Positions 7,666-55,293 of a stretch of DNA of 64,000 nucleotides are shown here, piece by piece. The notes below the pieces were generated by a model. The model did no database searches, was not told where the DNA came from, and saw only the letters and a list, made by a program, of their open reading frames with translations. The translations under genes and the position numbers were made by a program. The stretch is taken from assembly GCF_037975245.1 (NCBI RefSeq), contig NC_092563.1, forward strand, positions 4,578,501 through 4,642,500, read 5' to 3'. The first letter of the stretch is position 1, and the number at the start of each line of letters is the position of its first letter. Source of the DNA: Apostichopus japonicus. Taxonomy: Eukaryota; Echinodermata; Holothuroidea; Aspidochirotida; Stichopodidae.

Positions 7666-7972
7666 TATATATAAAGGCCGTGGCTATTCTTACGACGAGT
7701 CGTAACAATTATTTATAAACTATTCTTACGACAAAGGCAAATTCAAGTGCAGTAAAGTAAATAAAGCAACTGCGCATGTAGTAGGGGTAACCCTAACCCT
7801 AAACATAACCCTAAACCTCAATCCTAACCCTTACCCTAACCCTAACCGCAAATTATTGTTACTCCTCGTCGTAAAAATAGTACTCCTGGTCATGAAAATA
7901 GCAACTGCGCATGCGTAGTCGGAAATTATTCTTACAACTAGTCGTAAGAATAGCCACTTTGATATATAAACA
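7666..7972. mobile_element. MITE-like inverted-repeat element with a telomere-like core
   Basis: The left side reads TATATAAAGG then GTGGCTATTCTTACGAC at about 7667-7696. The right side at about 7930-7972 gives, reverse-complemented, TATATATCAAA then GTGGCTATTCTTACGAC, so the two ends are inverted copies about 300 bases apart. Each arm also contains an internal palindrome (GACGAGTCGT; the other arm has GACTAGTTGT). Between the arms, at 7788-7848, are degenerate CCCTAA repeats, the complement of the animal telomere repeat TTAGGG. No coding capacity. Target duplications were not identified. Confidence 0.65.
7788..7848. repeat. Interstitial telomere-like (CCCTAA)n tract
   Basis: About ten degenerate CCCTAA-type hexamers, with variants such as ACATAACCCTAAACCTC. 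The tract sits inside the inverted-repeat element rather than at a chromosome end, because unique sequence and genes follow on both sides. Confidence 0.85.
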
Positions 7973-25775: not shown

Positions 25776-28513
25776 ATGGCCACTGCACAATTGAGTGAGG
25801 GAGAAAAAACTTTTATAATTCATGGCATCATGGTAAGTTTGTATGGTTTGTATTGGTCCACAGGTTTGTAGCCTAAATGAACCACAGAAAGGTAACTGGG
25901 CATTTAAAACAAAAATCTTTGCTGTTTTGTGTAACTGTTAATGCTTTTATTCTTACAATGATGAACTAAAACAGCAATTCAAGTGCTTAGTGCTTTAAAG
26001 TGAATGAAAAGTTGATGTCAGCCAACAAAGGACAAAAAAAAAATAATGATTCTGCTCAATTGTCTTAGTACCATTTAAAGTAATATTTATAATTAATGAT
26101 AACATCCAATAATGATGCTGACTATTTTTTTGAATTTCAGGAAGATGTTAGGACGGATGGTAGATCTTGTGAAGAATATAGGCAGGTTGAGGTCGAATGT
26201 GGAGTTGTCTCAAATACCAGTGGGTCCTCTCGCCTGCGTCTCTTAAATACAGAAGTCATCGTAGGAGTAAAAGCCGAAATGGGAGATCCTTCACCCAGCC
26301 ATCCGAATGAAGGACGACTAGAATTTATGGTGGATTTTTCAGCAAATGCATCGCCAGAATTTGAAGGAAGAGGAGGGGATGATTTATCCGTTGAGATGTC
26401 CACAAGATTTGCTGAAGTCTTTCGGACTCAGTCAGTTTTAGACTTGGTGTCATTGGGTATTATTGACGGGCAATGTTGTTGGATCCTATATGTAGATATC
26501 GTTGTATTGGAATGTGGAGGTAACCTTCTGGATGCAATGTCTTTGGCAGTAAAAGCTGCTTTAGCAAATACCAGGTGAGTTCCTCTACAACCACTGTCAG
26601 CAAACTAAGGGTAGAGACTCAATGTTTGGATCACAAAGGATTTTTCAACTAGTTTTTTATGCACTTATCTTACTTCAAATTTTCTTTATATACTACTGAA
26701 CCTGGTGGCCCTGTGTGCTTAGGATTGCATTTTCGCTTCTTCAAGCCAAGATCAATGAACTTGTAGCAAGGAAGCAGAGCCAACCATCACAGTAGTAACC
26801 ATATTCCTGTGGCATTGAAATGACAAATTTGTTAATTGGGGGAAGGGGAGGGAGAGAGGCAGAGAGTAGAGAGGGTTACAGCCATATACCAAAAGTGTTG
26901 GTCTAAAAAGATTGCAGACCGACTGTGCTGCAGCTCTTTAGGAAAGCATTTGCCATTATTCATCAGCAAGGTATCACCTATGTGAAGCACCCTAGATTCT
27001 AAATGGAGACCAACAATTGCTTGCATGATTTCAAGTCATGAAAGTGTTTCATGAATCTTTGAAATGATAAAGTCAGCTATTTCGCTGTGTTCTTTTTTCA
27101 AACAGAATCCCTAAGGTCACCGTTTTAAAGGACTCAGAGGGCGGTGAAGACATTGAAGTATCCGATGATCCAGATGGTTACAGCACATTGAATATTGACA
27201 TGGTACCATTGTTTGTGACATTAAGTAAGGTAAGATCCTTCCTTCAATAAGGTTCCTCTACATTTTATATGGATATGAATAGCTTGGTTACACTGAGGTC
27301 CTGTAATACTGATTTCACATCTTATTTATTTATTAGATAAAAATATGAATAATTCAGTTACTGTACACTGAGGTCTTGTAATACTGATTTCACATCTTGT
27401 TTATTCATTAGATAAAGATATGAATAATTCAGTTAATGTACACTGAGGTTCCGTCATACTGATTTCACATCTTGTTTTCTTCATAAGATAAAGATATGAA
27501 TAATTCAGTAACTTACTGTACACTGAGGTCCTGTAATACTGACTTCACATCATGTTTATTCATTAGATAAAGATATGAATAATTCAGTTACTGTACTCCG
27601 AGGTTCTGTAAATACTGATTTCACAACATGTTTATTAATTAGATTGGTCAAAGGCATGTGGTCGATGCAACGCTAGAGGAGGAATGCTGTTGCAGTGCGT
27701 CTCTGGTAACAAGTGTCGACAGTTCTGGAAAGTTCACCGGAGTTGTCAAAAAAGGGACAAGTAGCCTGTCGAACGAGAGCCTCCATGAGATGCTACAGGC
27801 AAGTTTTCAAGATAATTACCTTCCCTAGGTTTTTTCATTCTTTATCCTTTGTGTAATAATTCTGTCAGCTTGATTCCAATCTTTCCATATATTATCAGTC
27901 ACTTGAAAAGGGTTTGCATTTTCAACGAAAGAAGATAGGTGGACAATTTCATGAAGTGTATTTAGTGCCAGACTTTCAAATTCAGTTAAGAAAATTATAA
28001 ATGTATGCTGCTAATTGAACAGCATAACTTTTCCTTTTGTACTTTTGTGTATAGAGAAGAGTAATAAATTAAGACTTTCTCCATGGTGATATGCCCAAGT
28101 TTGGTATTTTTAAGTCTGTACAAGAACCCGAAGGGAGTGTCAATCTACATGAAACTAAACTTTATACCTTGACTGCCGTACTGTAAGCAGCTCATGTTTT
28201 TTAGTTTGCATGTTTTACTTGATATCATTTGTCATTTGTCCTGATTATCATACAATTCCAACCAATTGGCTCCCACTCTTATCGCAGAAAAGCTTCATCT
28301 GTGTAAATATTAAACTTACATCTGGCTTCTAAATCATTCTCTCCAATTTTCCTTCCTAGGAATATTACAGTATTTAAAATCCTTGTCAATGATCTCTCGT
28401 TTGTTCCTTTGTAGGCAGCTAAAAAGGTAGGCATACAGTTACATCATAGCCTGAATGAGGTTCTGAAGGAAGTTGGGTCAAATACCTCTGGAAGAGGGTT
28501 CTTGGTCGGTTGA
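25776..28513 (+). CDS. EXOSC7: EXOSC7 (exosome complex component RRP42), 5 exons
   Basis: RNase PH-fold subunit of the hexameric ring of the eukaryotic RNA exosome (nucleus, nucleolus and cytoplasm), which threads RNA to the catalytic DIS3/EXOSC10 subunits and is itself catalytically inactive in animals. Exons: 25776-25832, 26141-26574, 27106-27229, 27643-27798, 28415-28513, total 870 bases (289 aa; human 291). Conserved blocks are MATAQLSEGEKTFIIHGIM, EDVRTDGRSCEEYR, VVSNTSGSSR, GVKAEMGDP, SPEFEGRGGDDL, VDIVVLECGGNLLDA, IELSDDP-like IEVSDDPDG and GQRHVVDATLEEE. The last intron appears to use a GC donor (CAG|GCAAGT). The 3' splice site of intron 3 lies at the edge of a tandem repeat. Candidate polyadenylation signals (AATAAA) occur near 29107 and 29915. 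Confidence 0.95.
27255..27642. repeat. Tandem repeat in EXOSC7 intron 3, 75-80 bp unit, 5 copies
   Basis: The word TGAGGTCCTGTAATACTG (or a variant) recurs at about 27294, 27369, 27444, 27524 and 27599. Each unit also contains GTTTATTCATTAGATA. The final unit runs directly into exon 4: its TTTATTAATTAG forms the 3' splice site. Confidence 0.9.
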
Positions 28514-30376: not shown

Positions 30377-33300
30377 ATGGATGCCACTGAAATATGTCGC
30401 GCGTGCTTTAACTGCTATTACCAATTACCAAAACATGGTAAACCACAGGAGGGACGAGAGTGGACACTTCTGGCAGGATTCGTTCTCGAAAGTAGGTTTC
30501 CATCACCAATGCAGTCTCGAATCTTGACCTTACAAGTGAAATGTAAACATGGGTTTTGTTTAAACGTGGGGACCAGTTTCACGAACTGAAGAAGCATGTG
30601 AACGTGTGCCCAGAAGTGTGGGGGTGGGTAGGGGGGTTGAGGGTCGGGGAAGCTTGAGGGTCGGGGAAGCTTGAGGGTCGGGGAAGCTTGAGGGTCGGGG
30701 AAGCTTGAGGGTCGGGGAAGCTTGAGGGTCGGGGAAGGGAGTAAGAAGAGGGAATATCATGGAATTATACATGTCTTGCGATAAAATAAAGAGTTGCCGG
30801 TGATTACAGTTCCTGGACTTCGGCTACATCAAATTTGATCATATACTACTCTGCCTAGCACTACAGCAGTAGCACCTCACGGTATATTTGCTGATTTGCA
30901 TTGCACTTACAGTCCTGAGTCTATATGCATATTGATAGGAATCGTGAATAGTTATTGAGGTTGATCTTGAATCTGCCGGAAATGTATGCTTATGGAATTG
31001 TGTATATCTTTTAGAAAGTTAAAACTAATTCACCAGGCAATAAAAGGCTTTGATTCTTCCTGGACATGTTATTACTAGTTAGATATATAGACAATTAGAT
31101 TCAGTACCATACAAATCTTTATTGTTTTTGATACATCTTTGCAGGCGATGGCAGCTACACAGTAGTATCTTTAGCTACAGGCACCAAATGCATAGGGAAG
31201 AAAAATATGGATCCCAAAGGTAGGTGTGACAGGACTATTTAATGAAGGAACTTGGAAGTTAGACCAACCTGTACAGTATCTGCTTCCATAGAACTTACAA
31301 CAGTGAGGCTGTGACATTTTTGTAATTAGTTGTTCACATGCTTCAAATGATCCAAATCAAGTGAGCGAAATTCCAGGGACGACCTTGAAGAAATCACTGC
31401 TACCTCTCTCCCTCCTTCCAACCCTCTGCCAGATAAAATGAAACCTGAGCATCAAGCACTAAGCAACTCCCCCATCCCTCCCCCACCCCAAAAAAGAAAG
31501 AAGACAATGTGAATTTGAAAATTAATCAAAAATTATTTTGGGCAGCATGCCTTAGGGCTTCTTTGCATATTGCCAAGCTTGTTTATAAGACTAATTGGTC
31601 ATCAGATTGTTAGTAAGGGGTGAACTGATTTCTTTGAACTTAGTTTTGTAAAGATCCAACATGAAGACTAGAAACATTTTATCCAGCATTGCAGGCCTTA
31701 AACCAAGCTCAGGATGGTTGCTCTAATGTTCAAGGCCATGTTGACTATAATGCCTTCTTTTTTGTTTCTTAGGGGAGACCCTTAATGACAGTCATGCAGA
31801 AGTTTTAGCAAGAAGAGGATTTCTAAGGTACTGTGACATCCAATGATCAAAGTAACATTTGGATATTTGGTAAAATTTTACTTTAAAGGCATTGAACACT
31901 TGCCCCAAACCGTGTGCTGCCATCTGAAAAAGTTAACTTTATGTTACTTGCAAGTGATGTTTTAATTATGTTGCTACAAAATGCAGCCAGTAATGAAATG
32001 TGATACCTTGTTATCTTTAACTGGACCTGAGATGTCCATCGCTGTATCGTTTATACACTGTGCTGTGGGTAATGAACGCAGCTGTATGTAAGTAGACTGT
32101 ACACTAGTGTCTAATTACCGACGGTAGCAAGCTGTGTGTGTATTTTCTGGGATCGATGGTGGTGTCTAACACTTCTGTTACACCTCATTCGAAACTTGGT
32201 CAGGAATTATCTCTTTCCTCTTTGAAGGTATTTGTATGACCAACTGGTGCTTGCCTATTCTAACCAAACCAGTATTTTCCATCTACAAAGTCAATCAAGA
32301 TGTTGCCAACTCAAGGATAACATCAAGTTCCATTTCTTCTGTAGTCATACACCATGTAAGTACATGCTACTTTTCTTTGGATTTGGTACATACTCTTTTC
32401 TTATCCTGTGGCTCTCACCATGTATTATTGTACTCTGTATGCTTCTTCTCAGGCTCAATGTGCAATAGGGATCAATTAAGATCAATACCATGTCTGAAAT
32501 ATGAAAATGGTAAATTTACTTTGTAACCACTTATTTATTATAGAATTATCCAGTGGCTCACCATCATGTTGCACTGTGATAGTTACAGTGGAGGGTGCGG
32601 GGGGGGGGGGGTTAGTTTGAGAGACAGCTGTTTTATGGTCCAAGATGACCAGATATTGAGCAGAAATATCATGAGCCCTGTCAGGTTGCCCAAAGAGAAA
32701 TCTCTTTTGAGTTCAGAGATAAAGCCTTAGATTCTTCATTTGACCAGTTTTGTACATGTCAAGTGATTTCTAGTGATACATGTTTCATACAGGTACAGTA
32801 AAAGTGTAGAAATATTTTCTCAGGACTTTTGATTCTCTTCTGAATAAGGTGGTGATGCATCAATCTTTCCAAAGAAGATATCAACAGGAGATACCCAGCC
32901 AGATGGGAAAGAGTCACCGAACCCGGAACAACGTAAAGGCTGTGATCAGAAGATGCAGAAAAGAGACGGAGAATTGTCAAGGAGCAGACCAGCCAAGAGA
33001 GTCTGTGTATCTGAAGTTACCGAACAGAGCGTGTCTGTACCGTTACATAATAGAATCAACAAGGAAGAAAGAACAGAAATAGACACAGGGGACACTTATA
33101 GAACGAGGGGTGAACATGACACGACAGAAACAATAGAATCAAACAATGCTGATCAACAAACAATAGAATCAAACAACGCTGATCGGCAAACAATAGAATC
33201 AAACAACACTGATCGGCAAACAATAGAATCAAACAATGCTGATCGACAAACAATAGAATCAAACAACACTGATCGGCAAACAATAGAATCAAACAATGCT

Positions 33301-36300
33301 GATCGAGAAACAATAGAATCAAACAATGCTGATCGACAAACAATAGAATCAAACAATGCTGATCGAGAAACAACCTGCACAAGCAATCAAACATGTATTA
33401 AGGAAGATATTTATCGGACAGGAGCCAAGTGCGTGTCTGGCGAAGAGCAAGATTTGCTGCTGGCTGGGTCGGACTATCATGTGACTGGTGTACTACGTAC
33501 AAAACCAGGCAGGGGAGACCCATCTCTTTCTATGTCTTGTAGCGATAAATTAATGCGCTGGACGGCCCTCGGTTGTCAAGGAGCTCTGCTTTCTCATTTT
33601 TTACCTGAACCTATAAGACTTTCATCCATTGTTGTTGCAAAGTAAGTTGACTGCTGAGCGATAGAGCCTTGTGTGTTATGATTTCAAGATCCAAAGAAAA
33701 AAATTAAGGAAAATAAGGGAAGCAGGCTATTTATTTCTTTGTTGGTTGTTTGCTTCCGTTTCTTGTTGTTTTCTTCAGAATTTAAGTGTTGTTAAGAGAT
33801 TTTAAGTGTTGTACTCTACTATAAAAGGTTCTTGTTAGCTGCATTGCAAAACATAATCACTGTGTCTGAATTGGCTAAATACAGTATTTTTCTCCTCCAA
33901 ATTAGTAAAATACCATACCCTCACAGCAAAAAAGGGATAAGATTGTACATGTGATGGTTTATAGCAATAGTGACAAATAGAGTAGAACTCAATTGATTGA
34001 CCTTGGTATATTCACAACAGTTCATATGAATTTTCTGTAAGACACGGTATAATGATCACAGACTCATCAGTTAATGTTTGACGGAGGGAGGGGGGAGGTG
34101 GGAATGGGGGAGTGGAGGGGAGGGGAGTTGGAGGGCAGCCAAGAGTTGGGCCCAACTATATACGGATGAATATCAGTTAGTGACAGAGGTCCTGTGTTGT
34201 TTATTGTGTACTAATAAAACCTTTATCCAAAGGTAGTACTTATTTTTCAAAATTATTTCATGGTATCAGGATTTTGTGAAGATCTCTTTTATCAATTATG
34301 TAATATATTTTACCCTTTTTTTAAATTTACAGCTGCCCTTACAACCAAGCTGCAATGGAGAGGGCTGTGACTGGCAGACTGACTAGTATGTCAATGCTGC
34401 CACCAATCTATCCATCTATATACAATACCCAACTTTGCTTTAAATATTCCAAACATGAAGTAACAAAGAGGCACGATGTGAGCAAAGGCAAGCTGACACC
34501 TTGTGGTTCAGGTATAAACTGTTGTATAAGCCCCCAATGAAATCTAATCCTGATCAAATTTATGTGGAGAATGCAGCCTTTTTTTTATTACTTCTTTTTC
34601 TTATTTAGAAATATGTAACGATGATACAAATGTTTTAGACTACATGGTAATAAAGAACACTAATAATTACAAAAATGATTTAATAGAAATTATGGAAAAA
34701 AGTTTGGTGTATGGTTTCACTGGGTTCAAAGAGGGCCAGTGACAGGGCCATTTTATGAAGGAGAGGTGCATTACCCCATTTGTACCATTTTGAGAATTGT
34801 ACCATCTTCTTTTGTTCATTGCCTCTGTTTGTGATAAGAATTCTTGTGATGGGGAGAAAAAGTCTTTGGTCATCAAGCTTTCCATTGTAACTCTCGACTT
34901 AACCAACCTTTAAAAAAGAATGACACTTCAGACATATTGTTTTATGTCATAGGAACTATTACTGTAGTATGTGGATTGTATGAATGGTATTTATTCTTCG
35001 GAATGATTTTTACTAATCCATGCATTTCTTGATTTATAATTATATGCCAACCATTTGACTATATTGCATCATAAGCAACCATAATAGCAATGACAAATGT
35101 TATTAGAATAAAGTAAAACTTTTGTAGCTGAATTATGTCATAAAGTCAGAGTTCTTAACAGACACCCAGATGCTATTTTAATGTATATGCTATTACTTGT
35201 CATATGTCATCGTGGAAACCTCCTAGTTATAGAATAGCGTGCAGTTTAATTTATGTCTTTAAGTTTCATTAAAATTTTACAGCGATTGTCTGGAGTTTAG
35301 TGTCACGTGACAGCATGGAAGTGTCCGTCAACGGCAAGAGGCTTGGAGTGACGGCTAAGAACTGGAATAAATCTACGTCTAGGTAATAAAGACACTTCTT
35401 CCACTCTTTTACACCAGCCCCACTGCTCAAATGCATACCAAGGAATCTTCTATATCCAACTTCAAATTAGGAAGGTGCAATTTCCACTTCTAAAGCCTGT
35501 CGCACACTGTGCGCATTATCCCGACAAGACTCAATTTGATCTTGGGTACATGGAAAATCTTTAACCTACCTGAGACATTTATTGTTCACTGGTTTAGCTT
35601 TTAGTTGAATCTATTACTGTCTTTCCTTGGTGCATTCATTCTATATACGTTGAACATTGGAGGGGAACAGTGACCGTGAGGAGTGAGGGAGGGGGGGTGA
35701 CTACTTTTTCACTTCAGTACATATACTCCTTCATATTGCAGATGCCACATAAGCAGTGCCTCTCTATTCAGCAGCTTCAAGGCCCTGGTGGACTCCATCC
35801 CAGTTGAAGAGCGCCCTCATACATTATTGTAAGTTCATTTAAAAATAAATATTGGGGGGGGGGGCAAGATTTTCTGTGGTAGGATAATTTATTACAGTAC
35901 TTCATATGGTAAAAATACACCCTTTTATCTAAAGGGTAGTTCACAAAAAACTTATGTCGAGATTTGAGTTTTAATTTGAATTTAGGGTATGCTTGTAATT
36001 AATTCCTCTATGATTTACTTCACAAAATAACTTTGACACAAAAACCAATTCCTGTCAAAGGTTGTAGATTTAGAATCAATTGAACTGCTTGAGATTCACA
36101 CGTAATAACTGCATCCATAGTATTCTTATGAACTAGAATGAAAAATGTGACCATTTCTTTCTGATGAGAGTGGTATTACTTTTTACTTTTTGTACAATTT
36201 TGTTAGAGTAGCCATCTCATAAGATTGAATGAAATCATTGCTTCATTGCATTCAACACTCTGAAGACAATTATTAAGCCATCTTTAACACCATAAATTTG

Positions 36301-38369: not shown

Positions 38370-38842
38370 TCATTCAAAAGTATTCTCCCCGCTGTAAGCA
38401 GCGTACAAGAATCCATCGGGATCCTTGTGCTCTTGGTAAATGGCTCCCATTGTGGCCCAGCGAAGCAAAACATGGATTAAAGTCAGTGATTGCGAACCAT
38501 CGACATAAATCTGAATAATAAATAAATAATCAGTTTTAGTAATCGAAAATATGTCAATTAGTCAGTTGTTCACACATACTAGGGCCTGAATTAGGAATCT
38601 AGAATGTTGTGGGTAATATTTCTTGTATGTAAGAACATTGCCTTTTCTGGTGGATATTGCAGTCGTCTTCTGATGATGTACATAAACTTTGCTACAGTTA
38701 GATCCGAGGGGACCAAAAACTTAGTCTTGTCAATCTCTGCTATGGATGACCTGGGAGCTTTCTCAACAATTACCGGGATACGGCCTGGATTCTTGGCTCT
38801 GAGGTCAGCCGATTCTGCTATTCGCTCTTTTGTGAAGGTACA
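38370..38842 (-). pseudogene. GABARAPL2: Damaged GABARAP/LC3 (Atg8-family) gene, probable GABARAPL2 orthologue
   Basis: Atg8-family ubiquitin-like modifiers are cut after a C-terminal Gly, joined to phosphatidylethanolamine and drive autophagosome formation. On the minus strand, about 38842-38640, one frame reads RIAESADLRAKNPGRIPV, then VEKAPRSSIAEIDKTKFLV, PSDLTVAKFMYIIRRRLQ and PPEKAMFL, the core of an Atg8 protein. A second block at about 38511-38370, after an AG acceptor, gives [26 protein letters not shown] and a stop. Three things look wrong. There is no usable GT donor after AMFL, and the frame runs to a stop after 10 more codons. About 7 unexpected residues precede TMG in the second block. 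The last residue is Glu where the essential Gly should be. No first exon was found. The GABARAPL2 name rests on its position between ADAT1 and TMEM231. A diverged functional gene is possible. Confidence 0.72.
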
Positions 38843-43866: not shown

Positions 43867-44591
43867 AAAGCGACAATTATCTGCAAATTGACGAGTTGAC
43901 GAGATGGTAACGTGACAAAAATCAGAAAATTGACGTTTTGACGAGATAACGGATCTCGTCAATGCAGCAATTTTCTGCAAATTGACGAGTTGCACACTTA
44001 CTACCATCTCGACAAAACGACAAAATTCAGAAAATTGACGTTTTGACGAGATAACGGATCTCGTCAATGCAACAATTTTCTGCAAATTGACGAGTTGCAC
44101 ACTTACTACCATCTCGACAAGACGACAAAATTCAGAAAATTGACGTTTTGACGAGATAACGGATCTCGTCAATGCAACAATTTTCTGCAAATGGACGAGT
44201 TGCACACTTACTACCATCTCGACAAAACGACAAAATTCAGAAAATTGACGTTTTGACGAGATAACGGATCTCGTCAATGCAACAATTTTCTGCAAATGGA
44301 CGAGTTGCACACTTACTACCATCTCGACAAAACGACAAAATTCAGAAAATTGACGTTTTGACGAGATAACGGATCTCGTCAATGCAACAATTTTCTGCAA
44401 ATGGACGAGTTGCACACTTACTACCATCTCGACAAAACGACAAAATTCAGAAAATTGACGTTTTGACGAGATAACGGATCTCGTCAATGCAACAATTTTC
44501 TGCAAATTGACGAGTTGCACACTTACTACCATCTCGACAAAACGACAAAATTCAGAAAATTGACGTTTTGACGAGATAACGGATCTCGTCA
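43867..44591. repeat. 105-bp tandem array abutting the Penelope-like element, about 6-7 copies
   Basis: The landmark CTTACTACCATCTCGAC recurs every 105 bases (43997, 44102, 44207 and onward). Each unit contains the palindrome GACGAGAT-AACGG-ATCTCGTC and several short inverted words built on TTGACG. Because 105 is divisible by three, the minus strand shows a 265-codon frame with a 35-residue period; this follows from the repeat and is not a gene. The last unit runs into the retroelement frame at 44591. Confidence 0.92.
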
Positions 44592-46358
44592 GATTCTGAT
44601 CCTACTCAAGAAATCACACAAAACGTGAAAAGAGTCATCCAAAAGATAGTCTCTAACGGTTCCATTGACCGCAAGTTAGGCCAAAACCTCCTGGAAAACG
44701 ACCCAAAACCTGGTCGCTTTTATTTTCTGCCTAAAATTCACAAAGAAGGCCATCCCGGGAGGCCCATAATATCGGGTAATGGCACAGCGACTGAAAAAAT
44801 TTCCAAATTCGTGGATCTCCTCATCCAACCTCTCGTTTCGGCCCTACCGTCCTATGTGCAGGACACTACGGATTTCATCCGGAAAATTGGGGAAATAAAA
44901 AATCTTCCCTTATCTTCTCTGTTAGTTACCTTGGATGTGTCTTCGTTATACACAAATATCCCTAGCGAAGAGGGCATTTCGGCCTGCACAAAAGCATTCA
45001 AACCGAAACGTGGCAAAACCCCCACGAAGAAAGAATTGGCCGAATTAATGCAACTTATCTTGACCAACAATAATCTGGTATTTGGCAACAAACACTACCT
45101 CCAAATTCATGGCACCGCAATGGGTACCAAAATGGCACCGTCTTTTGCCAACATCTTTATGGGAAACCTCGAGAAAGAATTTTTATCTCGACAAAACTTG
45201 AAACCACACACGTGGTTACGTTACATTGACGATATCTTTATGATATGGACCCATGGTGAGGCAAATCTAAAACTCTTCATTGATGACATAAACTCGTTTC
45301 ATCACACTATCAAATTCACTGCTGATTTTTCTGGACATGGCGTTCACTTTCTGGACACCACCGTGAGCCTACAAAATGGTTCACTCAAAACAGACTTGTT
45401 CAATAAACCCACGAACAAGCACAACTACCTCTTACCAAGCAGTTGCCATCCACGTCACTGTACCAGAAATATTCCGTACAGTCAAGCGTTGCGCATTCGA
45501 CGCATTTGCTCCTCTGAAGTCGATTTTGATTCACGCACCAAAGAACTGTCACAACACCTCCTAAACAGACAGTATTTTCGGGGTACTATTGAAAATGCCA
45601 TCAAAAAGGCTAAAAACAAACCCCGTACCGAAACATTGACGTACAAAACTCGTCAAACCAGTTCCAAAAGGGTACCATTGGTTACTGAATTCCACCCTGG
45701 TCTCCCACCACTGGCTAATATCATTCAGAAGAATTTTCACCTACTTCAAGGCACCGAACGCCTGAAATCAGTATTCCCAGAATTACCTGTCATCGCCTTT
45801 AAAAGACCCAACAACCTACGGGATATCTTAGTTCGGGCATCCTTTCGGGATGACACCCCATTAGGGGAAAGCAAAACAGAAACTACAGGATCATCGCCCT
45901 GTACACAAAATTGCAAAACGTGCTTACTTGTCGATTCGACCGGGGCCTTTCAGAGCAACCAAACCAAACGCACGTTCCAAATTCGGCACAAAATTAACTG
46001 CCTATCCAAAAATGTCATTTACCTCATCTACTGCAATATTTGTAACTTAAAATACATTGGAGAGTCAAAAAACACTCTTAGAATGAGAATGACACAACAT
46101 AGATCGGCGATCAAAACAAAAAAGATCTACCAACCTGTTGCAAATCACTTCAATCTCCAAAATCATTCAATTGAAAATTTGCGTGTTATTGCCATTGACC
46201 AGAACGATTCTTGGACAGATAAATCTAGGAAAGCGAAAGAAAATTTCTGGGAACTAAACCTAAAGACCACGGCACCATTCGGTTTAAACATCAGAAACGA
46301 TTTGCCGTCCCAGATAAACCAAAACAATTCCTTTACAATTACGACGGAATCGGATTAA
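44592..46358 (+). CDS. Penelope-like retroelement: reverse transcriptase plus GIY-YIG endonuclease, 5'-truncated
   Basis: Penelope-like elements retrotranspose with a telomerase-like RT fused to a GIY-YIG nuclease. The open frame enters from 44592 (DSDPTQEITQNVKRVIQ); a stop in the adjoining array lies just upstream, and the first listed codon at 44625 is GTG, so the native N terminus is missing. Numbered from 44625, RT landmarks are FYFLPKIHK, GRPIISG, LDVSSLYTNIP, HGTAMGTKMAPSFANIFMG, the catalytic YIDD at residues 200-203 and VHFLDTTV. A linker with ILVRASF and a Cys pair (CTQNCKTC) follows. The nuclease begins near residue 464 with VIYLIYCNICNLKYIGES and continues with LRMRMTQHRS and NHF. 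There are 577 codons without a break, so this copy is recent, though truncated. Confidence 0.93.
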   Translation, partial: DSDPTQEITQNVKRVIQKIVSNGSIDRKLGQNLLENDPKPGRFYFLPKIHKEGHPGRPIISGNGTATEKISKFVDLLIQPLVSALPSYVQDTTDFIRKIGEIKNLPLSSLLVTLDVSSLYTNIPSEEGISACTKAFKPKRGKTPTKKELAELMQLILTNNNLVFGNKHYLQIHGTAMGTKMAPSFANIFMGNLEKEFLSRQNLKPHTWLRYIDDIFMIWTHGEANLKLFIDDINSFHHTIKFTADFSGHGVHFLDTTVSLQNGSLKTDLFNKPTNKHNYLLPSSCHPRHCTRNIPYSQALRIRRICSSEVDFDSRTKELSQHLLNRQYFRGTIENAIKKAKNKPRTETLTYKTRQTSSKRVPLVTEFHPGLPPLANIIQKNFHLLQGTERLKSVFPELPVIAFKRPNNLRDILVRASFRDDTPLGESKTETTGSSPCTQNCKTCLLVDSTGAFQSNQTKRTFQIRHKINCLSKNVIYLIYCNICNLKYIGESKNTLRMRMTQHRSAIKTKKIYQPVANHFNLQNHSIENLRVIAIDQNDSWTDKSRKAKENFWELNLKTTAPFGLNIRNDLPSQINQNNSFTITTESD

Positions 46359-47628: not shown

Positions 47629-50600
47629 ATGGCTGTCGTGGAACTGCATTCTCATCCAGTTTTAGTGAAATACAGGGCTAGTCTATGCACCAGAGGCACT
47701 ATTTTCATGATAATTGTGTTCATTTTGACCGTGATACCACCACTTTTGATTGCATATCGTAGTGAAGGTTTGATGTCTTTTCTCAGTCATTTCACAACCG
47801 TCGAATATTACTATTTGATTAGCCTGTTAAAGCGTAACTACACAACGCTAGTACTAATAACATAGGCGTAGACTAGGCCTATAACGGCTATAGCATATTT
47901 CGTTAGGATAATAACGGGCATAATAATATTATTGTTTCATCGGTCAACTAATAAATTATTACTAATTCTATTTCTAGCCTAGACCTGCTAAGTACTGTAA
48001 ATGTAACAGCAAGTCAAGCCGAGACCTAAGCATGAGTAACAAACCAGATCCACCAGTGCCCCTAAGACTAGTAAGAGTGGACAGTAAGAGTAAGACTACT
48101 TCGTAAGACTAAATTTGAAAATGTAAAAAAATAAATAGGCCTAACTTAAGTTTTGGCCTAAATAAATAACCATGGAGATTGGTGCCTAAAACGGAGATTT
48201 AATAAACTTTCCAAATTCTAATAAAATTCCTGTTTTTCACATTCTAACAAGTTATTTGTGTTCAGCATTGTATTCTTTGACAACTTTCTTTGACTTTCCA
48301 AAAGTTCTGTAGCCTATCCGATTTGTTTTAACGGTGAAAGAATTTTGCTATTGAGATTTGAATATATACATAGAACTGGAGTCTCAAAGTAAAACCAGTA
48401 GAGTTGGAAGGTATTGCTATCTCATGTTAGTTTTACAATATGGTACTTACGAAGGCCTATGGTAACTTTCTGTATGATTAAAGCTATAGGTGTATCAATA
48501 GGACCAAGGCTTCTTAATCAGGCTTAAGTTACCTACGTAGTCACCCGTGGACCTATAAGTAGCAAGTAATATATTGTAGCAAGTGTCACAGGCCGTTTGT
48601 ACTACCTTGTGCTGAAAGTTGGAGTGTGTAGTGCTTGTTGAACAAGGCTTTTTTTTAACCAAATTTTGTTTTCTTCCAACTAGGCCTAATGAATCTTTTG
48701 TTTCAGTCAAATAGCCACCTTTAAAGAATATAAAACAGAAGAAAGATTGTCGAATAGTGATTTTTAGCTCCTTCAAATCTGAAAAAATTGGATGCTCATC
48801 GCTTAATTCTAAAAGAATGCTGCTTTCAGCTATATGCCAACTTGTGCCAGCACCAAGTATCTTGTACAAATTTAAATGTAGCTTTCAAAGGGCTTTTGTA
48901 AGTAGTTATTCATCTATAGATTTCTTCCTCACTATCTCTACAGGATTTTGGATAAGGGAGGCCTTTTACCGAGAACAGCCTAGCGTTGTATTTAAGCATG
49001 GAATTTTGCTTGTTTTAGGAATGAGAGATGGTTCTTATGTGACATGGAGTACTTATTCAAATTTTAATCTGTTGGAGCAAAGTCATCTTATCATACCAGT
49101 CGTGAAGGTAAAGTGAACATGAGCTTTTTCTTACCTCAGAGTATACTATGCTTCTACCAATTCATGCTTTGATGTTAGATTAATTGATCAATTTCAAAAC
49201 TAGTATGCAGTTTATGAATGCTACACATATGATATTTATTTGAAATTGTTTCTGTTTATGCAATGTTATCAATTCTCTTCGATGTGATTTTTCCTGTTTC
49301 ATTTTGTACCATCCATATCATTACATATATAACCTAATGTTCATGGGAGGAAATGTCTTAGAAACCATTGCTGTTATCCATATTTGTAAATATGAGTGTT
49401 GATGTGGGATATGATAAGGTAAACATTTGTTTACAAGTATTTGTTTACATTCAAAACTACTAGTTGTGAGCATACATGTAAACAGAAATGAATGAACCAC
49501 TGTTGATTTTCAGACAAGAGAAGAAGATGTGAACAGAGATGGAAAAAGTGATAAACTTCACTTTAATCTGGAAGTTCCAGTTTCTGACTCTCAGGATGTT
49601 GTGTCAGTGGAGATGATCCTCGTCTTCGATTACAAATTAAATGTAAGTAGGAGGGTAATGAAAAGAATAACTCTTTATCTTTAATGTGGAGGGTTATAAT
49701 TAATTTAAATCCTGATGTTAATGTCTCACCCTGACATCTTGAATGTGCATAGTACCAGAGGGTGTAAAATAGTAGGAGGGGTGGGGGGGGGAGGTGGGGA
49801 GGACACAAAGTTTGAAGGGCAGTGGGACATGTGACTTTCATCTCAGAAAACAAACTGTGTGATAACCTCAAAATGTCCTGAAAATATTGACCTTTTGTGC
49901 TGTTATTCTGTTTAACAAATTCCATGATTTGAATGTTCTTCACCAACCAACACTTTTGCATACTAGCTTTTATTTTTACTCTACAAAGGGGCTGATGGTC
50001 CTTTTGAAATAACAATATGGCAATTTTTTTTAACTTTTCAATAACATAGAGAGGCACTTCTAATTTATGAAATTGTTTGAGAATTTTTCACAAACCTTGT
50101 GAAATTGTTTGAATTCCCCCCGTTTGCCTAGGTTTTTGCCATCTTTGGTAGGATTGTTGAAACAAGTTTGATGGTTTTAAGGAAAGTGTCTGACAGAAGA
50201 GACCATCTACAGTAGTCTATTTGTTGCTAACAGGGTTAGTTATAACATGGTCAATCCTATTGAAAGTGACTGTGATGTCATAAATGTAAGAAAAAGAAGT
50301 GTAACGTACAGCACCACAACACATCTTTCTCAAACTCAAGATAGGGATACCATCTCTGTAGTTCAAATCAGTTTTTACAGCGTATTGTGTACTGATGATA
50401 ATAATTGAAATAAGGATATCTTTACCTCGCACGTAACCCTACTTGTATTTAGAGTATAAACAAATTTAAAAAACACGTAATTTATCACAGAAAGGTAAGT
50501 TGTTGAAAACCAAAACACAAAGTCAAAATTCCACTTTTAAAAGATTTGAAATAATTAGTTGGTCAAGCTAGAAAGGTTATTTACAAAGATAGTGTAAAGT

Positions 50601-52856
50601 GCCCTAAAAATTGGCATTTATGCATTTGCTTTAGCAGTCCTGAATCTTTCATTTTACAGCGCTTCTCCACACTTCATATGGAGTCGATGGCCTTCATTCA
50701 ACGTGCATCGTTTGCTGCGGGAGCCAAGTTTGTAGCTGAAGGAGATCTCAGGTTACAGCTGAAACAACCGTTAGCACATAAAGGCAGTGATACAAGATAT
50801 AATGTAAGTCTTTATGTCTTTAAGTTTTCACCAAGCGAACTGATGATTGCATTGTATCAAAACATTACATACCTGGTTTTCCTGCTTGAGATGTGAATAG
50901 TATCTATCTATTTGCATGCGGTGTTCAGACTTCAAAGAAGTAAAAGTTGAGCCAATAGAGGCTACAGCCGACCAATTTTGGATTTTTAGCTTTCGTTCTT
51001 GTGACATGTTCGCTATTTGTTATTTTTGCCTGCAGGTTGCAATAATAGACGAAAACAGCGTCTTTGTAGAGGACTACACACTCTCAAACATATTTAGTAA
51101 CTATTTGAGCAGAAACGGTGAGAGATTATTTCATTAATGATATATTGTCATGTTTAAATTTGCGCATAAGATTCAATTTTATCTTCTTTGGTTCATGCAA
51201 TTTTTAAATATTTTTTGCAGGGTCCAGATCTTTATAAAAATAATATGGTGTTAAGCCTTCACAAAGTCTGTATAATAATAAAGCTTAGTCTAGACATACC
51301 ACACTTTATTATTTAGCTATCCCGAATTTGCATATAAGAATCAGGACTGAAGTTGATATTTTCATTATCCGTTGCACTTTGTGGATATAAAGAAAAACTT
51401 TTCCCTACCTACTTGCACTTTACTAGTACCAAGAGTTAAAGCTGGTAGAATGTGGTTTATATGAAATTATCCAACCCGCTACGTTGACTTAAATTTGCCT
51501 TTTAATTATTTTTGTTTTTGTTTGAACAGTGAGCACATATTTTGACTGCAAGTATCCGATATGGCAGACTGGTCGAGGAGCTGGGCAACCGTTTATAATT
51601 ACAGGATCTGTCAGCTACCCAGAGGAGCTGATCATATATCCTTTACGTCTTGACCGTCGGTGTTTGTACATCTATTTAAGCAATAGGACAGGAAATATAC
51701 CAGATGCATAGCTCATTAATCCGTAACAGTGTCGTATACCAGAGCTCAATAGGGATTGGAAAACCTAACAACAATAAACCCCCAAAATCTGATTGATTGA
51801 TTGACAAATTGATTGATCATATGTATCAGTTTTTTGACAATGTTCAATAGGGATTGGAAAACCTAACAACAACAAAAACCTCCAAAATCTGATTGATTGA
51901 TTGATTGACAAATTCATTGATCATATGTATCAGTTTTTTTACAATGTTCAATAGGGATTGGAAAACCTAACAACAAAAAACCTCCAAAAACTGATTGTTT
52001 GATTGACAAATGCATTGATCATATGTATCAGTTTTTTTAAACCATGTTCAATAGGGATTGGAAAACCTAACAACAGCATAACACCAAAATCTGATTGATT
52101 GATTGACAAATTGATTGATCATATGTATCAGTTTTTTGACAATGTTCAATAGGTATTGGAAAACCTAACAACAACAAAACCTCCAAAATCTGATTGATTG
52201 ATTAATTGATTGAAAAATTGATTGATCATATTATTAGTTTTTTTAACCATGTTCACTAGGATTGGAAAACCTAACAACAACAAAACCTCTAAAATCTGAT
52301 TGATTGATTGACAAATTGATTGATTGTATGTAACAGTTTTTTAAACCATGCTTACAAAAAATATTCCATTTGCTAAGTTTGAATGGCATGTGTTTGCATA
52401 CAAATCTATCTTTGTAAAATTGTATGGTGTAAATATGGATCAATTTTGGATTCCTTGTCCCTTTTATTTTGCCCCATTGTTGGCCTACCTATTCCTTCTA
52501 TTTCCCCAATATTTTTCCCCATACTTTTTCGACATTTTCATTCCTTCGTTTCGTCCAACTATTTTGTGAGGTTGTGTCGAACGGCTTGCATTCCATGACA
52601 TGAAGCATCTTAAGTCGCTGAGTTTATGTTTACTCTAAAATCACTGCTAGATTCTGAAAAAGGAAGTTTCCTTAACCTGTATCATACATATATTCCAGGA
52701 TTTTGGCAGACCATTAAGATGGGATGGATCCAGTATCTATCGGTCCTCGTAATCTTTGTCTTTCTTATGGAGAAAGTTAAAATGTTTGTGTTTGAAAACC
52801 AAGTCATTACCACGATTATCGAGAGACCGTCTGCTTCCAAGAACCATGCCATGTAG
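47629..52856 (+). CDS. TMEM231: TMEM231 (ciliary transition-zone membrane protein), 7 exons
   Basis: Component of the MKS/tectonic-like complex at the ciliary transition zone, which gates membrane-protein entry; human mutations cause Joubert and Meckel syndromes. Exons: 47629-47767, 48944-49107, 49514-49642, 50660-50803, 51036-51117, 51530-51635, 52688-52856, total 933 bases (310 aa; human 316). The start is the ATG giving MAVVELHSHPVLVKYRASLC, which matches the family start. Membrane segment 1 is about residues 25-41 and segment 2 is near the C terminus (MGWIQYLSVLVIFVFLMEKV). Between them is the extracellular domain with FYREQPSVVFKH, TREEDVNRDGKSDKLHF, AGAKFVAEGDLRLQLKQP and DTRYN. Introns 1-5 are GT-AG; intron 6 is AT-AC. 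Confidence 0.95.
51636..52687 (+). other. TMEM231: U12-type AT-AC intron (TMEM231 intron 6)
   Basis: No GT donor fits the conserved reading frame at the end of exon 6. Instead the exon is followed by ATATCCTTT (51636-51644), the U12 AT-AC 5' splice-site consensus. At 52668-52676 is TTCCTTAAC, matching the U12 branch-point consensus, and 11 bases later the intron ends in AC (52686-52687). Joining at these points gives ELI-I-YIPGFW, which aligns residue for residue with human VEVISYQPGFW and keeps the frame open to the stop. Confidence 0.9.
51745..52345. repeat. Minisatellite inside the AT-AC intron, about 100-bp unit, 6 copies
   Basis: Units contain GGGATTGGAAAACCTAACAAC, AAATCTGATTGATTGATTG and GATCATATGTATCAG. 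They recur about every 95-105 bases, with small differences in the GATT run length. The array occupies more than half of the U12-type intron. Confidence 0.92.
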
Positions 52857-54876: not shown

Positions 54877-55293
54877 CTCTCCTCTCCTCTCCTCTCCTCT
54901 CCTCTCCTCTCCTCTCCTCTCCTCTCCTCTCCTCTCCTCTCCTCTCCTCTCCTCTCCTCTCCTCTCCTCTCCTCTCCTCTCCTCTCCTCTCCTCTCCTCT
55001 CCTCTCCTCTCCTCTCCTCTCCTCTCCTCTCCTCTCCTCTCCTCTCCTCTCCTCTCCTCTCCTCTCCTCTCCTCTCCTCTCCTCTCCTCTCCTCTCCTCT
55101 CCTCTCCTCTCCTCTCCTCTCCTCTCCTCTCCTCTCCTCTCCTCTCCTCTCCTCTCCTCTCCTCTCCTCTCCTCTCCTCTCCTCTCCTCTCCTCTCCTCT
55201 CCTCTCCTCTCCTCTCCTCTCCTCTCCTCTCCTCTCCTCTCCTCTCCTCTCCTCTCCTCTCCTCTCCTCTCCTCTCCTCTCCTCTCCTCTCCT
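54877..55293. repeat. Pure pentanucleotide array (CCTCT)n, about 83 copies
   Basis: Roughly 415 bases of uninterrupted CCTCT units (AGAGG on the other strand). Strand asymmetry is complete: pyrimidine on +, purine on -. Several reading frames are open on each strand purely because the unit lacks stop codons. The true length may differ because such arrays collapse in assembly. Confidence 0.97.

Follow-up and report, generated by a model that had tools for sequence, protein, structure and literature searches.

A U12-type AT-AC intron very probably interrupts the TMEM231 gene of the sea cucumber Apostichopus japonicus

Both the minor-intron status of TMEM231 and the kind of minor intron concerned are already published. 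The excerpted text of PMC13216214 lists TMEM231 among the minor-intron-containing Meckel-Gruber genes, with down-regulation on loss of ZCRB1, and in that of PMC8280824, Figure 5A uses Tmem231 to illustrate how cryptic splice sites are activated when CENATAC is depleted, within the section on A-type minor introns. Further literature searches on TMEM231 in minor splicing led to the same 2 papers. U12-type introns follow the consensus (A/G)UAUCCUUU at the 5' splice site and UCCUUAAC at the branch site (PMC8199999, excerpt), and the optimal distance from the branch site to the intron 3' end is 11-13 nt (PMC6717393, excerpt). The original prediction had placed the AT-AC subtype in a small minority within the U12 class, which does not hold for human, where it accounts for roughly a quarter of them (24%, about 26%, and about 22% in the excerpts of PMC8280824, PMC10639083, and PMC6717393, respectively). 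Since the minor intron of human TMEM231 is known, the sea cucumber intron reported here represents a clear but largely expected case: the 2 have in common the gene and the minor-spliceosome class (PMC13216214, PMC8280824) and come from different phyla.

The gene lies in a 64,000-nucleotide stretch of A. japonicus DNA (hereafter, the window), located at G000:C3:4578501-4642500 of the assembly; the piecewise match to the public A. japonicus protein P0004, described below, agrees with this origin. In our exon model, the coding part of TMEM231 extends over 47629-52856 on the plus strand and consists of 7 exons (47629-47767, 48944-49107, 49514-49642, 50660-50803, 51036-51117, 51530-51635, and 52688-52856), of which the first 6 are separated by 5 GT-AG introns of phases 1, 0, 0, 0, and 1. 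The spliced product of 310 aa matches the Pfam family PF10149 (TM231) from position 1 to 300/301 with 373.6 bits and contains 2 hydrophobic segments, with hydropathy peaks at residues 24 and 272; the TM231 domain along its length and the 2 segments together identify it as a TMEM231 protein. As a separate observation, the donor of intron 1 is unusual, with AAG at the exon end followed by GTTTGATG (intron start at 47768-47777).

Intron 6 (51636-52687, plus strand; 1052 bp, phase 2) carries AT-AC termini: the exonic CAT is followed by ATATCCTTTA, and the intron closes with TTCCTTAACCTGTATCATAC. The nonamer ATATCCTTT at 51636-51644 fits the published U12-type 5' splice site consensus as well as the pattern (A/G)TATCCTTT of U12-type introns, and the branch-point motif TTCCTTAAC at 52668-52676 fits the published branch site consensus as well as TCCTTAAC, the pattern sought near the 3' end. 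The terminal AC (52686-52687) lies 11 nt past the branch motif, which is within the optimal range. The coordinates of the intron, both motifs, and the distance to the AC are exactly as originally predicted, and the reading as a U12-type AT-AC intron is supported by the agreement of donor, branch motif, and distance with the published consensus. The interior of the intron contains a tandem array (51746-52344; no strand assigned) of a 98-bp unit in 5.9 copies with 85% matches. Taken with the evidence presented below, intron 6 is very probably a U12-type (minor) spliceosomal AT-AC intron, and the minor intron known from vertebrate TMEM231 is most likely its orthologue.

The frequency of the motifs alone was discarded as evidence, as each is expected about once or twice per 64 kb: shuffled 64-kb sequences contained on average 1.9 instances of RTATCCTTT and 0.93 of TTCCTTAAC, so that neither is rare in itself. 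It is their placement, not their mere presence, that lifts these signals beyond chance, as the probability of finding the donor at one fixed place together with the branch motif in a 13-position range is about 3e-9 under a first-order Markov model. Furthermore, the assembly (671,581,487 bases, 35 contigs) was searched for the minor-spliceosome snRNA genes U6atac and U12, yielding 1 full-length match each for U6atac (104.2 bits, G000:C21:14472172-14472301) and U12 (115.9 bits, G000:C17:2920891-2921040), both over the family cut-off, while none of 14 control genomes gave a U6atac match and none of the 14 a U12 match. The intron 6 donor contains TCCTTT, the complement of AAAGGA in this U6atac, and the branch motif pairs with GTAAGGAA of this U12 once one A is bulged. 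These complementary genes lend additional support to the U12-type reading, as does the published status of TMEM231 as a minor-intron gene. Within the 64-kb window, Rfam gave no matches at gathering score.

Whether other cut positions could account for the protein was assessed across 22,100 pairs, combining exon 6 ends within 51590-51759 with exon 7 starts within 52600-52729. Of these, 5402 pairs encoding 3062 distinct proteins read 290 aa or more ahead of a stop, and the proteins were scored against a profile of 65 of the 88 homologues P0001-P0088 (P0004, P0009, P0026, P0033, P0053, P0080, P0085, P0087, P0088, and all others shorter than 250 aa were left out). The AT-AC pair 51636/52687 reached 464.2 bits, the best score among all pairs with known termini. 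The identical protein also results from 4 other pairs with TA-CA, AT-AT, TC-TA, or CC-AT ends, none of which is standard, and a slightly better one (464.9 bits) from pairs with CA-CA, AT-AT, or TA-TA ends. The AT-AC junction preserves the reading frame and creates the motif [YF]xPGFW, which occurs in 73 of the 88 homologues (a count that includes P0033); among the 15 others are truncated, single-exon, and divergent entries as well as P0008, which reads FIPGFL. The original claim that AT-AC splicing restores the YxPGFW alignment is supported by a 310-aa protein with a near full-length PF10149 match.

The accompanying claim that no GT-AG pair fits was, however, too strong, since among the 17 GT-AG pairs with products long enough to be scored, 51647/52698 (plus strand) retains the frame and the same length. 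Cutting there by the major spliceosome would produce a 310-aa protein with PLR replacing IPG, and its 452.0 bits are the highest score of any GT-AG pair. We nevertheless regard use of this pair as highly improbable: its score is 12 bits worse than that of the AT-AC pair, the PG of the widely shared [YF]xPGFW motif is lost, the donor (C/GTCTTG) is poor and lacks the GTRAGT pattern, and the perfect U12 signals would have to be coincidental. Still less credible, to the point of being nearly negligible, is that the major spliceosome excises intron 6 with its AT-AC termini. The donors of major AT-AC introns are ATAAGT-like; such introns resemble intron 6 in terminal dinucleotides, while the sea cucumber donor and branch motif instead follow the U12 consensus, with the branch at optimal distance. 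Introns of this kind do exist, with 85 in the human set according to the excerpt of PMC8280824.

A third alternative arises from the public proteins of A. japonicus. The correct intron 6 junction is found in neither of the 2 proteins named for this species (P0004 and the partial P0009) among the 27 matches listed. P0004 is identical to the window over 27 aa (100%, exon 5) and 98% identical over a 61-aa stretch of exon 6, and its C-terminal end, ELIIYPLRLDRRCLYIYLSNRTGNIPDA, carries on past ATATCCTTT in the same frame and enters intron 6, as the DNA of the window reads, up to the first in-frame stop encountered on intron retention (TAG, 51709-51711, plus strand), where it terminates. Read-through of the AT-AC donor accounts for the missing exon 7 of P0004. 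This tracking of the DNA through the donor, together with the relatively high basal retention of A-type minor introns noted in the excerpt of PMC8280824, would fit a real retained-intron isoform without the second membrane segment, in which intron 6 acts as a switch. However, P0004 begins with a piece at 48032-48088 instead of exon 1, and the start of its exon 4 differs as well; for these reasons, we take P0004 to be an erroneous gene model rather than an isoform, and we consider a switch of this kind improbable. For comparison, retention of intron 6 behind the correct first exons would lead to a product of 279 aa with 1 hydrophobic segment instead of 2. The AT-AC junction is in turn favored by P0002, which is 69% identical, encoded in full length on a contig of 2087 bp, and reads YVPGFW at the junction; most simply, it would represent a spliced transcript from a related animal.

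Returning to the U12-type reading, the original prediction had suggested comparing the same position in other TMEM231 genes. A search with pieces of exon 6 returned 21 short proteins, of which P0109 is spliced and the other 20 are unspliced ORFs (10 vertebrate-like and 10 anthozoan-like, judged by similarity to named proteins; related sequences among them are not independent); 12 of 17 exon-6 pieces were used together with the window's own read-through. Read in phase 2, (A/G)TATCC yields x-Y-P, GTAAGT and GTGAGT yield a stop, and GTATGT yields x-Y-V. At the junction codon, x-Y-P was found in 17 of the 20 unspliced ORFs, x-Y-L in the remaining 3 (P0089, P0090, and P0094), and a stop in none. 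Since these are the readings that U12-type donors would give, a U12-like donor appears to be present at the same codon in other animals, and the U12 class of intron 6 looks ancestral at this protein level; the class assignment in the sea cucumber gains further support from the same ORFs. All 10 vertebrate-like ORFs have x-Y-P at this codon in the protein-level reading, with EVISYPF or similar where the sea cucumber sequence is cut, and a vertebrate protein reading of TCN-TAY-CCN fits an AT or a GT start alike.

The anthozoan-like ORFs (P0087, P0089, P0090, P0092, P0094, P0097, P0098, and P0105) concern the same codon, with a Y-P or Y-L read-through in 7 of them, and hint at a different subtype. 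M (ATG) occupies the junction codon of the 7 stony-coral-like ORFs, implying that the intron begins with G (GT, not AT); Pocillopora, the closest named coral to P0089, has I at this codon when spliced. Coral-like P0087 reads L-N three codons ahead of the junction codon R and then YRPGFW. On the protein evidence, this fits CTTAAC, 11 nt, and an AG end before A, that is, the spacing of TTCCTTAAC in the window, with the difference of an AG instead of an AC terminus; TTCCTTAAC would, however, place F ahead of L-N, where P0087 has H. Furthermore, 3 octocoral-like ORFs have L at the junction codon, compared to F in named octocorals when spliced, which marks an exon boundary at this codon. The frog model P0033 (LISCTYRPGFW) was rejected as evidence, as its odd junction is readable in more than one way. 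When a bacterial-genome and a viral collection were scanned for misplaced animal contigs carrying exon 6, pattern matches came up and no relative was confirmed. Judged from these protein readings, we think there is a reasonable, somewhat better than even, case that an intron at this one TMEM231 codon has been U12-type since before the cnidarian-bilaterian split, with its subtype being GT-AG in stony corals and AT-AC in the sea cucumber.

The surroundings of TMEM231 in the window offer several further observations. An ORF with an A_deamin domain (32848-33642, plus strand; 76.2 bits), which by inference is ADAT1-like, contains an in-frame array of a 30-bp unit (33128-33373; 8.2 copies, 92% matches) coding for a 10-aa repeat. 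Exons of the GABARAP family (38376-38830, minus strand) showed 63% identity over 67 aa and 73% over 26 aa to a probe sequence. As the human gene order at 16q23 is TMEM231-GABARAPL2-ADAT1, the position of both genes beside TMEM231 looks like conserved gene order. Upstream of TMEM231, an open frame of 592 aa (44580-46358, plus strand) contains RVT_1 (47.2 bits) and GIY-YIG (24.4 bits) matches, presumably resembling a Penelope-like element, and is immediately preceded by a 105-bp tandem array (43914-44591; 6.5 copies, 98% matches). An additional open frame at 26093-26578 (plus strand) matches the exosome component RRP42 (EXOSC7) with 190 bits to human PDB chains. Soon after TMEM231, a 5-bp unit (CTCTC) is repeated in 83 perfect copies (54877-55293), with long open frames on both strands, and a telomere-like, contig-internal TAACCC repeat is located at 7788-7847 (9.8 copies, 80% matches).

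Following the established pathway, U11 and U12 would bind the donor and branch site of intron 6, U6atac would next pair with the donor, and the exon beyond the AC, 11 nt past the branch motif, would be joined to give ELIIYIPGFW. If the intron were retained, the stop at 51709-51711 would be reached, and exon 7 with the second hydrophobic segment would be lost. We infer from the genomic signals that A. japonicus transcripts use the junction 51635/52688 and, as originally proposed, that TMEM231 expression in this species would depend on the minor spliceosome.

As far as our literature searches reach, what is new comprises a member from an echinoderm, an explanation of the annotation fault, and the hint of a change of subtype between coral and sea cucumber. 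These findings add an echinoderm example to a ciliary gene already known for its minor intron and explain the absence of exon 7 from public A. japonicus TMEM231 through read-through of an AT-AC donor. Moreover, U12 donors would be detectable from predicted proteins alone, since an unspliced phase-2 ORF reads x-Y-P, in contrast to the stop resulting from GTAAGT or GTGAGT. If this codon has indeed kept a U12-type intron from before the cnidarian-bilaterian split onward, exon 7 would be missing from gene models of non-model animals wherever AT-AC introns are ignored, and the minor spliceosome would, via TMEM231, have been linked to the building of the ciliary transition zone for most of animal history.
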